From a virus: DNA of 35,943 nucleotides. The notes under the pieces were generated by a model. The model ran no database searches, had not been told where the DNA came from, and saw nothing but the letters and a program-made list of their open reading frames with translations. This document shows, piece after piece, positions 1,845 through 28,597 of the stretch. Both the position numbers and the translations under genes were made by a program. Position 1 is the stretch's first letter; each line of letters starts with the position of its first letter. Where the stretch lies: positions 1 through 35,943 of IMG/VR virus record IMGVR_UViG_3300034119_000605; one strand, given 5' to 3'.

Positions 1845-1873
1845 TTTGATTTAGAAAATTATTTCTATATTTG
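1845..1873 (+). promoter_or_regulatory. promoter, Bacteroidetes type, for replication operon
   Basis: TTTG (1845-1848) and TATATTTG (1866-1873) are separated by 17 bases and fit the Bacteroidetes -33 TTTG / -7 TAnnTTTG consensus. Transcription would begin near 1880 and read the structured leader and then the initiator gene. Confidence 0.65.
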
Positions 1874-1879
1874 CGTATG

Positions 1880-2053
1880 CTTTTACAGTTCGGGTGCTCT
1901 TGGTCGCCAAACTTAATTCGACTCGAACTTAAAAAATATAGGATTTATAAAAGGGTAGGAGCTCTTATAAATTCGACAGTCAATAATAAATAAGGTTTAA
2001 CCCGATTTAATCAATGAGAACTCCTACTCTCTGCGATTATTTCGGGTTTTTTT
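1880..2053 (+). ncRNA. structured leader RNA with attenuator-like terminator
   Basis: Four helices are visible. Helix C is 9 bp (AGTTCGGGT 1887-1895 with ACTCGAACT 1921-1929) and encloses a small hairpin (TTGG 1900-1903 with CCAA 1907-1910). Helix A pairs 1952-1965 with 2017-2030 (14 positions, one wobble, one mismatch). Helix B pairs AACCCGA (1999-2005) with TCGGGTT (2042-2048) and runs into a T-tract (2047-2053), so it resembles a terminator. One strand of A lies inside the loop of B and the reverse, so A and B are either a pseudoknot or alternative antiterminator/terminator folds. It matches no riboswitch class I know. Confidence 0.5.
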
Positions 2054-2070: not shown

Positions 2071-3063
2071 ATGAGCGAAAATTTTAAAGGAGTTTTTATA
2101 CCTGCGGATATATTCCTTATTAAAGATTTATCACTGGCAGAAAAGATTTTAATAGTTACGATTTTAGGGCTTGACAATGGATCGGGCTGCTATGCCTCTA
2201 ATGAATATCTTTCAAAATTTGTGCAAATAACTCCGACATCCTGCTCAGGAATTATATCGAACTTAAAAAAATCTGGACTTCTATTCGAGCCTAAAAAGTT
2301 TGACGGTAGAAAAAGATATTTGTCAGTCAATACAAATTTTCTTTACGATATGCCTACAATAAATATGGATGCAGACTTAAAAAAAGACTTAAGCAGCATA
2401 TCGAATATTGAAAGACAGACTAATGAAAAAGATAATGCAGCATACAAAAAACCCGAAGGCAGCATTAAGGATTTTGTTAGGCAGCCTAATGAAAATCATA
2501 ACCATATTAATATAGATTATAATATAGTTAATAATATAGATTATAATAAAGAGAAAACCGATTTTTCTTTTTCTGAAAATAGTAAACAACTTATTTCCTT
2601 AAATGATAAAAAAGAACTCGAAAAGGTAAGTAGTGCGAATTTCGTAAATGACAAACAAAGCGAGCCATCTGAAAGCGCAAAATATTTTTTCGAGGTTACT
2701 CAGGTTTTGGCATTACTGACAGATCGCAGCGGAGTTAAATTTGTAATTCCAAAGACAAAGTCTGGAATTGAAAAATACGAGCCTTACAAGCTAATAAAAG
2801 AGCGAATATCGGACGGAGCAAAATTAGAGGATATTTTTGCTGTTGTCGAAATGAAAAATCAGGAATGGCAAGGCACTCCAATTTATAAAAACTTTGTCCC
2901 TTCAACACTTTTTCGAAAATCAAATTTTGACAAATACATTCAGCAAGTACAAATTTCAATAAACAATAATTTATCTAATAATCAAAAATCTTATAACAAT
3001 GGAGTTGACGCTAAACAACAGTACTCAGACTTTATTAGCAAAGTACTCGATTTCGAGCTTTAG
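2071..3063 (+). CDS. replication initiator / replisome organiser protein
   Basis: A 330-residue protein. Residues about 15-85 form a winged-helix DNA-binding domain of phage replisome-organiser type (SLAEKILIV, ASNEYLSKF, SGIISNLKKSGLL). Residues about 100-205 are a polar, Asn/Asp/Lys-rich linker. Residues about 206-292 resemble the conserved phage C-terminal domain Phg_2220_C (YKLIKERISDGAKLEDI, KNQEWQGTPIYKNF, PSTLF). Such proteins bind an origin and recruit host helicase. The frame is also open upstream to an ATG at 2014, but that ATG lies inside the leader terminator and family members start like MSENFKGVFIP, so 2071 is preferred. The linker-coding DNA carries direct repeats, as in lambda O. 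The 3' end overlaps the next gene by 65 bp. Confidence 0.8.
   Translation: MSENFKGVFIPADIFLIKDLSLAEKILIVTILGLDNGSGCYASNEYLSKFVQITPTSCSGIISNLKKSGLLFEPKKFDGRKRYLSVNTNFLYDMPTINMDADLKKDLSSISNIERQTNEKDNAAYKKPEGSIKDFVRQPNENHNHINIDYNIVNNIDYNKEKTDFSFSENSKQLISLNDKKELEKVSSANFVNDKQSEPSESAKYFFEVTQVLALLTDRSGVKFVIPKTKSGIEKYEPYKLIKERISDGAKLEDIFAVVEMKNQEWQGTPIYKNFVPSTLFRKSNFDKYIQQVQISINNNLSNNQKSYNNGVDAKQQYSDFISKVLDFEL
2411..2550. other. candidate replication origin inside initiator gene
   Basis: The linker-coding DNA contains two sets of direct repeats. AATATAGATTATAATA occurs exactly at 2509-2524 and 2533-2548 (24-base period). An imperfect 21-mer beginning CAGNCTAATGAAAA occurs at 2416-2436 and 2482-2502. 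The stretch 2500-2550 is almost pure A/T. Iterons plus an A/T-rich unwinding region inside the initiator gene is the arrangement of lambda-like origins. Confidence 0.4.
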
Positions 3064-7678: not shown

Positions 7679-8305
7679 GTGAAAAAATTTCAACAGATAC
7701 TTAAAGATAGGGGACACTATTCGGGAGCCATTGACGGAATAGTCGGACCACTTACATTAGGCGGAGCAAAGGCTTTTATTGATGCTGAGATGAATACTCG
7801 AGGCTGGGTTAAGCCAGTTAATGACCTTGTGTGGATTAGAACAGACCAAAGCTTCGATAATAAGTTTGCAGATTACGTTGTCAGATTTAACAATCGGGTT
7901 GCTGACATGATTATGAGCTGCTCAACTACTCCAGGAGATTTTATCATTTTCAATCCTTTGACCGTTGGCGGCATCACTGGCTCAGCGGTTGCCTGCGAAC
8001 AGCAAGTGATCGGGAGCCATAAATTTGTTACTTCGGGCAATTGGAAAAGCCTCTGGTTAAATGCTCCTTACTTTTTTCAGTCTGGAGCTATTGAGATTTA
8101 TAGAGATGCCAACAAAGACAGAAAATTAGACAAGGCGGTTAAGACAAAGGGTTGGTACGGCATCAACTTTCATCGGGGCGGTATCGGTCATTTAGTCGAT
8201 GACTGGTCCGCAGGTTGCTTGGTAGTTCCAGACAAGATCTGGTTCGAGGCAATAAAGATTTTCCGACCTAATCAATTGATAAATTTTACTTTGATTGAGT
8301 TATGA
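7679..8305 (+). CDS. peptidoglycan-binding endolysin-like peptidase
   Basis: A 208-residue protein with a GTG start. Residues 3-35 match a PG_binding_1 repeat (QQILKDRGHYSGAIDGIVGP). The C-terminal half carries NFHRGGIGHLVDDWSAGC (His165, His171, Cys180), resembling the His and WSAGC/SHGC-type active site of L,D-transpeptidase or carboxypeptidase-like cell-wall enzymes. No signal peptide is seen, so it would need a holin or act in the particle. It overlaps the MTase gene by 4 bp and leads the late operon. The lysin call is good; the exact bond cleaved is uncertain. Confidence 0.7.
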   Translation: MKKFQQILKDRGHYSGAIDGIVGPLTLGGAKAFIDAEMNTRGWVKPVNDLVWIRTDQSFDNKFADYVVRFNNRVADMIMSCSTTPGDFIIFNPLTVGGITGSAVACEQQVIGSHKFVTSGNWKSLWLNAPYFFQSGAIEIYRDANKDRKLDKAVKTKGWYGINFHRGGIGHLVDDWSAGCLVVPDKIWFEAIKIFRPNQLINFTLIEL

Positions 8306-9789
8306 TAATAGAGAAAAAGAAACTATCTGAATTGACCCCAGCTCCATACAATCCCAGACAAAGCACGGCAAAGCAGGAAAAGCACCTGAAAGCGAGCCTC
8401 GAAAAGTTCGGAGTTGTTGAGCCGATAATCTTCAATAAGCAAACGGGGTATATTGTAGGCGGTCACTTTAGGGTCAGGGAGTTAAAAAAACTGGGGTATA
8501 AGGAGATTGAGTGCGTAATTGTTGACCTTAGCGAGGAGGACGAAAAGGAGCTTAATATTAGGCTAAATGCCAACACTGGCGAGTGGGACTGGGATATGTT
8601 AGCGAATGAATGGGACGCTGTGGAATTGGAAGAGTGGGGTCTTGAAGTGCTAAATTTTGAAGCTGAGGAGCAAATACTCGAAGCGGAGGAGGACGATTAC
8701 GAGGTGCCAGACGGAGGTATTGAAACGGATATAGTCATTGGGGATTTATTCGAGATTGGCGAACATAGGTTACTTTGTGGGGATAGTACTGACAGCGATG
8801 CGGTTGCTAAGTTGATGAATGGGACGCTTGCAGACGTTGGGCACAATGACCCACCATACGGAATGAAAAAAGAAAAAGACGGAGTGTTAAATGATAATTT
8901 AAACTTTGACGATTTATTGGATTTTAATAGGGAGTGGATTGCTTTGCAGTTTATGCACCTTAAAGAAAATGGTTCGTTTTATTGTTGGGGTATTGATGAG
9001 CCTTTAATGGATATTTATAGCGAGATTTTAAAACCATACATAAAAGAACAAAAGGCAACGTTTAGGAATTTTATTAAATGGCAAAAATCAGAAAACGTTC
9101 AAAACATGTTAGCACCAAGCGGTAGAAGTTATTCTCCTATGGGCGAAAGTTGTTTATTTATTATGTTAGGTAGTCAAGGTTTTAAAAATGATTTATCTAA
9201 TTGGTTTGAAGGATTTGAAAAGTTTAGAAGTTATTACGAAATAGAAACAAAAAAAGCAGGTTTAAATATATCAAAAATATGCGATTTAACAAATTCTTAT
9301 GCAGGGCATTATTTTAGTCGTTCTCAGTATGCTTTTCCAACAAAGGAGCATCACGAAAAAATACAATTGTATTGCAAAGAAAATCAAATTGACGCTTTTA
9401 AAAAAGAATACGAAACAATAAAAAAAGAATACGAAACAATAAAAAAAGAATGGTATAACACAAGGGCTTACTTTGACAATACTCACGATAAAATGGGAGA
9501 TGTTTGGCATTTTGAAAGAACAAACCAAAAAGAAAGACAAGACACGGGAGGACATGCCACGCCAAAACCTATACGTTTATGTGAAAGGGCAATAAAAAGC
9601 AGTTGCCCAGAAAATGGCTTAGTTTTGGATTTCTTTCTCGGCTCAGGCTCGACAATGGTAGCTGCTCACCAACTTAAGCGCAAATGTTACGGTCTCGAGT
9701 TGGAACCCAAATACTGCCAAGTAATTATCGACAGAATGAAAAAGCTCGACCCGACATTAACAATTAAACGAAACGGACAAATAATATAA
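8302..9789 (+). CDS. ParB-domain / DNA methyltransferase fusion
   Basis: A 495-residue protein. Residues 1-~115 are a ParB-like N-terminal domain (LSELTPAPYNPRQ, GYIVGGHFRVRELKKLG). Residues ~145-495 are an amino-methyltransferase: catalytic DPPY at 183-186, then SAM-binding VLDFFLGSGST (441-451). Motif IV before motif I indicates the beta arrangement (N6-adenine or N4-cytosine). No nuclease partner lies nearby, so it is an orphan MTase, probably protecting phage DNA from restriction or marking packaging or replication. Between the motifs (about 190-425) the DNA is more A/T-rich and carries a 21-bp tandem repeat, consistent with an exchanged target-recognition region. Confidence 0.88.
   Translation: MIIEKKKLSELTPAPYNPRQSTAKQEKHLKASLEKFGVVEPIIFNKQTGYIVGGHFRVRELKKLGYKEIECVIVDLSEEDEKELNIRLNANTGEWDWDMLANEWDAVELEEWGLEVLNFEAEEQILEAEEDDYEVPDGGIETDIVIGDLFEIGEHRLLCGDSTDSDAVAKLMNGTLADVGHNDPPYGMKKEKDGVLNDNLNFDDLLDFNREWIALQFMHLKENGSFYCWGIDEPLMDIYSEILKPYIKEQKATFRNFIKWQKSENVQNMLAPSGRSYSPMGESCLFIMLGSQGFKNDLSNWFEGFEKFRSYYEIETKKAGLNISKICDLTNSYAGHYFSRSQYAFPTKEHHEKIQLYCKENQIDAFKKEYETIKKEYETIKKEWYNTRAYFDNTHDKMGDVWHFERTNQKERQDTGGHATPKPIRLCERAIKSSCPENGLVLDFFLGSGSTMVAAHQLKRKCYGLELEPKYCQVIIDRMKKLDPTLTIKRNGQII
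9400..9450 (+). repeat. 21-bp tandem repeat inside MTase gene
   Basis: Two perfect 21-base units (9400-9420, 9421-9441) and the first 9 bases of a third encode the peptide KKEYETI repeated. The unit is a multiple of three, so copy number can change without breaking the frame. It lies in the region expected to recognise target DNA. Confidence 0.9.
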
Positions 9790-27817: not shown

Positions 27818-28597
27818 ATGTCATTCAATAAAGAAAACTTTTTCGTTGAGGGGAACTCAGAAGAGTTCTTTTTCAGCCGTACAAATCCACTCGCAAACGG
27901 TGCGAACGCTGAGATACTAAAAATTGAAAATTGCGGAGGCTCTTGCGATCTACAACTCGATTTTAGCGCTGAGACAACATCTGGTACAACTACTTTCACG
28001 TTTAACTCTCCTACAAGCGGTTACACTACAAAGTATATTAAAGTACAAATTACAGACGGTGCTGGCAATTTTGTTACTGGCGTCGGCACTGGTACAGTTT
28101 CAAGTATTGCAATAAATGTAAGTACATTGACTGGAAGCGATTGGTCAGTAATTATCGAGATTGCAACTGGCGATATTGATATTTTAAATTGCGATTGCGT
28201 AAAAAGATTTAGCTTCCCTTATGATGGCGGAACGCTTGCAATTGATACAGAGGCGCTCTGGGCTCCAAAGTTAAGAATTACAAATGTAGGGGGAACAACT
28301 GCAATTACTACAAAATCACTCGGTTTGACTTTCCCTGCGAATGGTCCGAATATCAATTTCCAAGTTGAGCTCGAAAATATTGGCAATACTGTTTTGGACA
28401 TTGGCGCTATTACTGTAACCTCTCAGGTTTTATCAGCATCAATACCAACTTTTGCGGATATAATTTTCCCCGGTCAAAAACGTACTTTGTCAGCGGTTGC
28501 AAATGGTAACTTGACAGCAGGAGCAAAGACTGGAAGTATTGTGGTAAATAGCAATGGTGGTAATATCACTTTGGCTATTACTTACACAGTAGTATAA
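27818..28597 (+). CDS. virion decoration-like protein with Ig-fold C-domain
   Basis: A 259-residue beta-rich, Thr/Gly/Asn-rich protein between protease and capsid genes, where decoration or head-stabilising proteins usually lie. The N-terminal part includes Cys pairs (ENCGGSCDL, LNCDCVKR). Residues ~178-258 (NFQVELENIGNTVLDIGA, FPGQKRTLSAVANGNLTAG) resemble DUF1573/ASH-type Ig-like domains. This suggests a surface-exposed capsid ornament. Similarity is by pattern only. Confidence 0.65.
   Translation: MSFNKENFFVEGNSEEFFFSRTNPLANGANAEILKIENCGGSCDLQLDFSAETTSGTTTFTFNSPTSGYTTKYIKVQITDGAGNFVTGVGTGTVSSIAINVSTLTGSDWSVIIEIATGDIDILNCDCVKRFSFPYDGGTLAIDTEALWAPKLRITNVGGTTAITTKSLGLTFPANGPNINFQVELENIGNTVLDIGAITVTSQVLSASIPTFADIIFPGQKRTLSAVANGNLTAGAKTGSIVVNSNGGNITLAITYTVV

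Follow-up and report, generated by a model that had tools for sequence, protein, structure and literature searches.

A kissing-loop RNA leader that probably controls replication in phages of likely Bacteroidetes hosts

Introduction

That RNA can control replication initiators is well established for plasmids; in tailed phages such control is, to our knowledge, rare. In ColE1 (RNAI/RNAII) and in the IncI and IncB plasmids, loops of about 7 nt pair fully, changes in these loops set the specificity, and the target governs replication. The pairing there brings an antisense RNA together with a primer RNA or concerns translation activation, unlike the terminator loop that is involved in the phage leader described here.

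The repC attenuator of pT181 governs a replication initiator by means of a leader hairpin and an intrinsic terminator; loop-loop kissing is the first step of the regulation, and orthogonal variants rest on altered kissing specificity (PMC4878617). The phage leader probably resembles it in these respects. In pT181, however, a separate antisense RNA does the kissing, and terminator and antiterminator compete (PMC4878617), whereas in the phage leader the partner is a hairpin of the same transcript, HP1, which kisses the loop of the terminator itself, and the search for a conserved antiterminator was negative. Among phages, the CI RNA of P4, with its seqA-seqC immunity, and IsrK of Gifsy-1 are likewise short RNAs from the leader of a replication or early operon, in which RNA-RNA pairing goes along with premature termination or read-through of the downstream genes (PMC4825925). 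The P4 RNA as described there is processed and acts on two complementary sites, and 8-nt kissing loops that engage a terminator loop are not among the features described.

Results

A two-hairpin leader upstream of a phage replication initiator gene

The window analysed here is a virus record of 35,943 nt (35.9 kb), whose genes include an ERF-like annealing protein, a replication initiator, a ParB/methyltransferase, a terminase and a portal. One ORF (8302-9789) carries in a single frame an N-terminal ParB-like match and a C-terminal match to a DNA methyltransferase family. Since the promoter boxes are of the Bacteroidetes type and Bacteroidetes phages are found among the protein relatives, the host is likely a Bacteroidetes bacterium. 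The intergenic region 1676-2070, flanked by an upstream 129-aa ORF and the downstream replication initiator gene, contains a promoter-driven leader (1878-2053) that ends in a predicted intrinsic terminator 18 nt upstream of the initiator gene (Table 1). An in-frame ATG at 2014, inside HP2, would add 19 residues to the initiator (MRTPTLCDYFGFFYCKKLA); because leaders of the type found in the relative L002 have no such in-frame ATG, the start is likely at 2071. Upon aligning the initiators of the window and the relative L001 with those of L002 and L005 (alignment A1), we observe swapped N-terminal DNA-binding halves and shared middle or C-terminal parts, as in modular initiators.

Table 1. Features of the leader region in the window, and HP0-like elements in two related records
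Feature	Coordinates	Strand	Details
Promoter	1845-1873	+	TTTG 1845-1848, 17-nt spacer, -7 box TATATTTG 1866-1873
HP0, 5' hairpin with small inner hairpin	1887-1929	+	9-bp helix 1887-1895/1921-1929, one G-U
HP1, first hairpin of the kissing unit	1941-1974	+	8-nt loop 1954-1961; pairing part 1955-1961 (GUAGGAG)
Single-stranded linker	1975-1998	+	GACAGUC..AAUAAGGUUU; largely identical in close relatives, similar length in all
HP2, terminator hairpin and U-tract	1999-2053	+	Stems 1999-2005/2042-2048, 2008-2012/2035-2039, apical 2016-2019/2028-2031; 8-nt apical loop 2020-2027, pairing part 2021-2027 (CUCCUAC); U-tract 2047-2053
Kissing (loop-loop) helix	1955-1961 with 2021-2027	+	7 bp, covarying
Replication initiation protein gene	2071-3063	+	phrog_428 and others, E 4e-15
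HP0-like elements	L028 4335-4404, 3965-4033; L032 3872-3940, 3734-3802	-	Directly after TAnnTTTG promoters, before terminators

The sigmaA -7 box of Flavobacterium psychrophilum has been mapped as TAnnTTTG, at -12 to -5 (PMC9723704), and the -7 box of the window matches it, which places the predicted transcription start at about 1878. Folding of the RNA 1875-2053 gives -44.4 kcal/mol, against -31.6 +/- 3.4 kcal/mol for shuffled sequences (z = -3.77; better than 200 of 200 shuffles). The downstream end has the shape of an intrinsic terminator, with HP2 followed by T2047-2053, and this shape is repeated in the homologues listed. The G-U pairs, together with a promoter and U-tract oriented on the plus strand, indicate that the element acts as RNA and not as DNA; for the same reasons, hairpins acting at the DNA level at an origin are disfavoured.

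Upstream of the kissing unit, HP0 corresponds to the 9-bp closed helix of the preliminary description, which is present in the window; L001, L002 and other close leaders lack the helix, and HP0 is therefore a module separate from the kissing unit. HP0-like sequences (UUCGGGUGCUC..GUCG..ACUCGAA) open other promoter-terminator transcripts, two on the minus strand of L028 and two on that of L032, where they occur in tandem pairs, with one L028 copy lying upstream of a 76-aa ORF. They are possibly another RNA family of these phages, though with weak structural support: of three sequences folded, two did not outperform their shuffles. A possible lead for HP0 is the put RNA of HK022, likewise a structured element near the start of a phage transcript, which acts on termination, in this case by suppressing it (PMC9378689); the likeness is one of description only. 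Directly upstream of the kissing unit, the stretch 1714-1822 contains a second promoter (TATTTTTG at 1714) and ends in a terminator (T-run to about 1821), an arrangement of tandem leaders. We did not count this stretch as a second kissing unit, its loop match being only 6 bp, bulged and found by eye.

Homologous leaders share the design and differ in loop alleles

Scans with the initiator, the annealing protein, the terminase and RNA patterns yielded a set of 18 leaders, namely that of the window and 17 from other viral records. The initiator relatives L001 and L002 have the kissing unit directly upstream of their initiators, without HP0, and relatives with unrelated flanks show an identical leader design. 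All 18 leaders share the same architecture, consisting of the 5' hairpin HP1, a single-stranded linker and the terminator hairpin HP2. The apical loops of both hairpins are mostly 8 nt long (7-11 nt in the second copy of L023, L046 and L017), and loop-loop complementarity of 7-8 nt is found in 18 of 18; in the window and L001 a nested fold closes part of the HP1 loop (4 nt listed), yet the 7-nt complementarity is present. A U-tract follows HP2, with an ATG usually no more than about 30 nt further on. The TAnnTTTG box lies just upstream of HP1 in 11 of the 18, within a search range that stopped short of the window's own box, and L043-type leaders have a promoter box 1 nt below consensus.

A covariance model, R1, built without the kissing pairs, recovered five leaders that were not in its building alignment (L045, L038, L041, L036 and L035; E 1e-14 to 4e-6), each with two hairpins, 8-nt loops and a 7-nt loop complementarity. 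This recovery was not wholly blind, as the model holds loop sequence preferences, while the stems of L036 and L035 otherwise differ; L035 also brings a new loop allele, GUCGUGG/UCACGAC. Across 22 whole records, R1 found one copy per phage where any was found and two in one record, in a scan that was not exhaustive and missed L017 and L035. In total, there are at least seven loop alleles (GUAGGAG, GUAGCAG, GUGGACG, GUAGAGA, GUAGUGG, GUCGUGG and GUAGUGAG).

Upon comparison with described RNAs, Rfam 15 gave no match at the gathering threshold in the window and seven loci, and at relaxed thresholds only sub-threshold matches, the best reaching 23 bits against a gathering score of 125. The leader had no match in BLASTN searches against plasmids and phages, exact-pattern scans of viral contigs gave mostly chance matches in genes outside the true family, and the one genome-contig scan matched only a distant Clostridium terminase. 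No description of a kissing-loop leader was found in the literature searched, which covered few subscription papers. The cultivated relatives checked (Fpv5, TCUEAP2, Ceridwen, phiBB and Staphylococcus phage 77) are without the kissing leader; in Fpv5 the initiator directly follows the upstream gene, and in TCUEAP2 the genes overlap. Since these relatives carry the initiator without the leader, the leader is not essential to such initiators.

A generic descriptor of two kissing hairpins had a high background, with 35 real and 16 shuffled matches in 887 kb, and its single matches were therefore not counted as members. One of them, in Bacteroides phage B40-8 (L085, about 28410-28500), consists of complementary loops, CCGCCAA/UUGGCGG, and a T-run upstream of a Rha regulator gene; this hairpin pair may be a distant analogue or a chance match.

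Covariation supports a loop-loop helix between two closed hairpins

Next, we examined base-pair conservation. In the eight close leaders (alignment A6), 97.2% of 288 cells pair. All 7 pairs of the kissing helix are at 100%, and three of them show two-sided changes; the inner stem of HP1 and the apical stem of HP2 each contribute another three two-sided pairs, while the HP2 lower stem is invariant and hence uninformative on covariation. In twelve leaders (alignment A5), the kissing helix is paired in 84 of 84 cells and shows 17 two-sided changes, against a shuffle mean of 4.2 (0 of 500 shuffles), the alignment rows being related, so that such counts are not independent events. Its covariation score is 0.563 vs. 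0.151, the best slid register pairs 77%, and at position 5 of the helix A-U, C-G, G-C and U-A all occur. When all column pairs were scanned with no structure given, the kissing helix emerged as the longest helix conserved at 90% or more, and the only other runs of at least four pairs at that level were the apical stem and part of the middle stem of HP2. With two complementary hairpin loops, compensatory changes and conserved closing stems, the kissing structure is, on this comparative evidence, almost certainly real.

The preliminary description had placed in this leader a promoter, the 9-bp helix, a 14-position helix (1952-1965 with 2017-2030) and a terminator helix, all of which are present in the window, and had read them as an interlocked arrangement ahead of the initiator. 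The compensatory changes among homologous leaders, which that description had itself proposed to look for, strongly bear out such an interlocked loop-loop leader, with a different geometry from the one proposed. The long helix does form 13 pairs, and its central 7 bp are conserved, whereas it contains one C-A mismatch (1962/2020) and its outer positions are not conserved. The extension beyond the kiss, which comprises three pairs at one end and four positions at the opposite end, is paired in 26.8% of cells with no two-sided change, and we therefore rejected the 14-position helix as a conserved unit. Because the extension is unconserved and would open the covarying HP1 inner and HP2 apical stems, the conserved object is a kissing complex of two closed loops. 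An H-type pseudoknot does not describe it, both partners being hairpin loops with covarying closing stems, nor does a mutually exclusive geometry, given that the conserved kiss is 7 bp between preformed 8-nt loops and is compatible with the terminator; the covariation of the stems closing both loops indicates that terminator and kiss coexist.

These results bear on a conventional attenuator with a mutually exclusive antiterminator, in which the long helix between HP1 and the HP2 loop would form first and block HP2 until its 3' arm is made. Nested folding of truncations of the window leader gives the long-range helix for ends at 2028-2044 and flips to HP2 at 2048, and similar folding intermediates appear in L002, L027 and L017. 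Set against this, L046, L036 and the second copy of L023 have no such intermediate, L043 and L035 have only 3 pairs of it, the extra pairs are unconserved, and the stems that would need to open are those that covary. An antiterminator of the conserved pT181 kind was thus not found, the extension neither covarying nor being predicted in all members, and we consider this explanation quite improbable. As for a separate antisense partner, the minus strand of about 1920-2400 has no TAnnTTTG able to feed an antisense RNA across HP2, although a promoter without the consensus box is possible; the one minus-strand match, at 1915, lies inside HP0.

Most leaders directly precede initiator-type genes

When examining the downstream genes, we find that a replication-initiation-type gene comes directly after 15 of the 18 leaders (window, L001, L002, L022, which is the L005 record, L027, the second copy of L023, L043, L044, L045, L038, L041, L046, L036, L035 and L017). 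The proteins of the window, L002, L043, L044, L046, L023 and L017 were scanned and all match replication-initiation families, the rest being assigned by similarity. The first copy of L023, L025 and L100 instead precede small ORFs of the same early region, two of which were scanned and gave no match. The N-terminal domain of the initiator varies among phages with the same leader type, and the loop alleles can differ where the initiators are nearly identical (L038, L041), which indicates that loop identity does not track the initiator. Autoregulation by the initiator through its N-terminal domain is accordingly unlikely, as leaders of one type are followed by unrelated N-terminal domains and even by other ORFs.

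The preliminary description had offered a stand-alone regulatory RNA as its alternative, and the unit could indeed be a small RNA of the phage that works, for instance, as a decoy, by dimerising or on host targets, and whose terminator merely happens to lie before the next gene. In favour of this, promoter and terminator are both its own, the ORFs after three of the leaders are small and unrelated, further promoter-hairpin-terminator units occur on the opposite strand in L032, and termination would in any case yield a small RNA. However, an ATG follows closely after the T-run in the leaders inspected, with no space for another promoter, and 15 of 18 leaders stand before initiator-type genes of different types, which weakens the proposal to an unlikely one. 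Since a further promoter would not fit between terminator and ATG, transcription from the promoter described here has to pass HP2 to give initiator mRNA, and the position of the 15 leaders makes control of initiator expression the natural reading. The leader RNA element thus probably controls phage replication, as judged from its sequence and position.

Discussion

The reading that we favour, with a probability of roughly 55%, is that of a kissing-loop, cis-acting transcription attenuator of the phage replication operon, which would set initiator expression and release an RNA of about 110-175 nt. RNA polymerase would start near 1878, and HP1 would fold first and display its 7-nt loop sequence, which would capture the apical loop of HP2 (7 bp) as it emerges. 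The kiss would nucleate or stabilise the weak apical part of HP2, and the full HP2 with its U-tract would halt most polymerases near 2053, so that less initiator is made from 2071; where the kiss is blocked or HP2 is outrun, transcription would enter the initiator gene. We infer that the RNA is made, that its termination is incomplete or under regulation, and that the kiss favours termination instead of opposing it. The last point follows the predicted energies, since the HP2 apical hairpins are weak alone, at about -1.6 to -3.4 kcal/mol, compared with -7.7 to -10.5 kcal/mol for cognate loop duplexes, which suggests that the kiss helps HP2 to form. As the kiss is compatible with HP2, an effect on termination that is upward, downward or nil would fit the sequence, and a kiss of opposite sign may delay HP2 formation.

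The same loops might instead exert copy or immunity control in trans, with the HP1 loop of a terminated RNA, or of an RNA from a resident relative, kissing nascent HP2 loops and repressing the initiator, a reading that we hold to be possible and rather doubtful. Repression would then be proportional to phage copy number and, with the same degree of doubt, loop alleles would set specificity as in plasmid incompatibility or with the P4 CI RNA. Leaders that are nearly identical, and whose initiators are too, do carry different alleles (L038 GUAGGAG, L041/L045 GUAGCAG), L023 has two units with different loops, and most non-cognate loop pairs lie above -5 kcal/mol, in contrast to the cognate energies given above. 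There is also a precedent, in that the P4 CI RNA stops transcription of the P4 replication genes by pairing (PMC4825925). Nonetheless, the loops are already complementary within one molecule, so that pairing in cis should outcompete pairing in trans, neutral compensatory change would also make the loops diverse, and related alleles cross-pair (GUAGUGG with UCACUAC, -7.3 kcal/mol).

In this leader, a covarying kissing complex joins the loop of an intrinsic terminator to a partner loop in the same transcript, which is a simple arrangement. Such a leader is apparently undescribed, having no match in Rfam or in the literature searched for Bacteroidetes-type phages. With seven alleles that are largely orthogonal, the naturally occurring loops could be put to use directly as RNA regulators. 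Tentatively, the leader may represent the first of a family of phage RNAs whose self-complementary loop pair serves as an allele-specific identity tag, with terminated leader RNAs acting in trans on the corresponding replication leaders of similar phages; if that reading, which we think unlikely, were true, these phages would possess copy-number control and superinfection exclusion by RNA only, with alleles that diversify like plasmid incompatibility groups.
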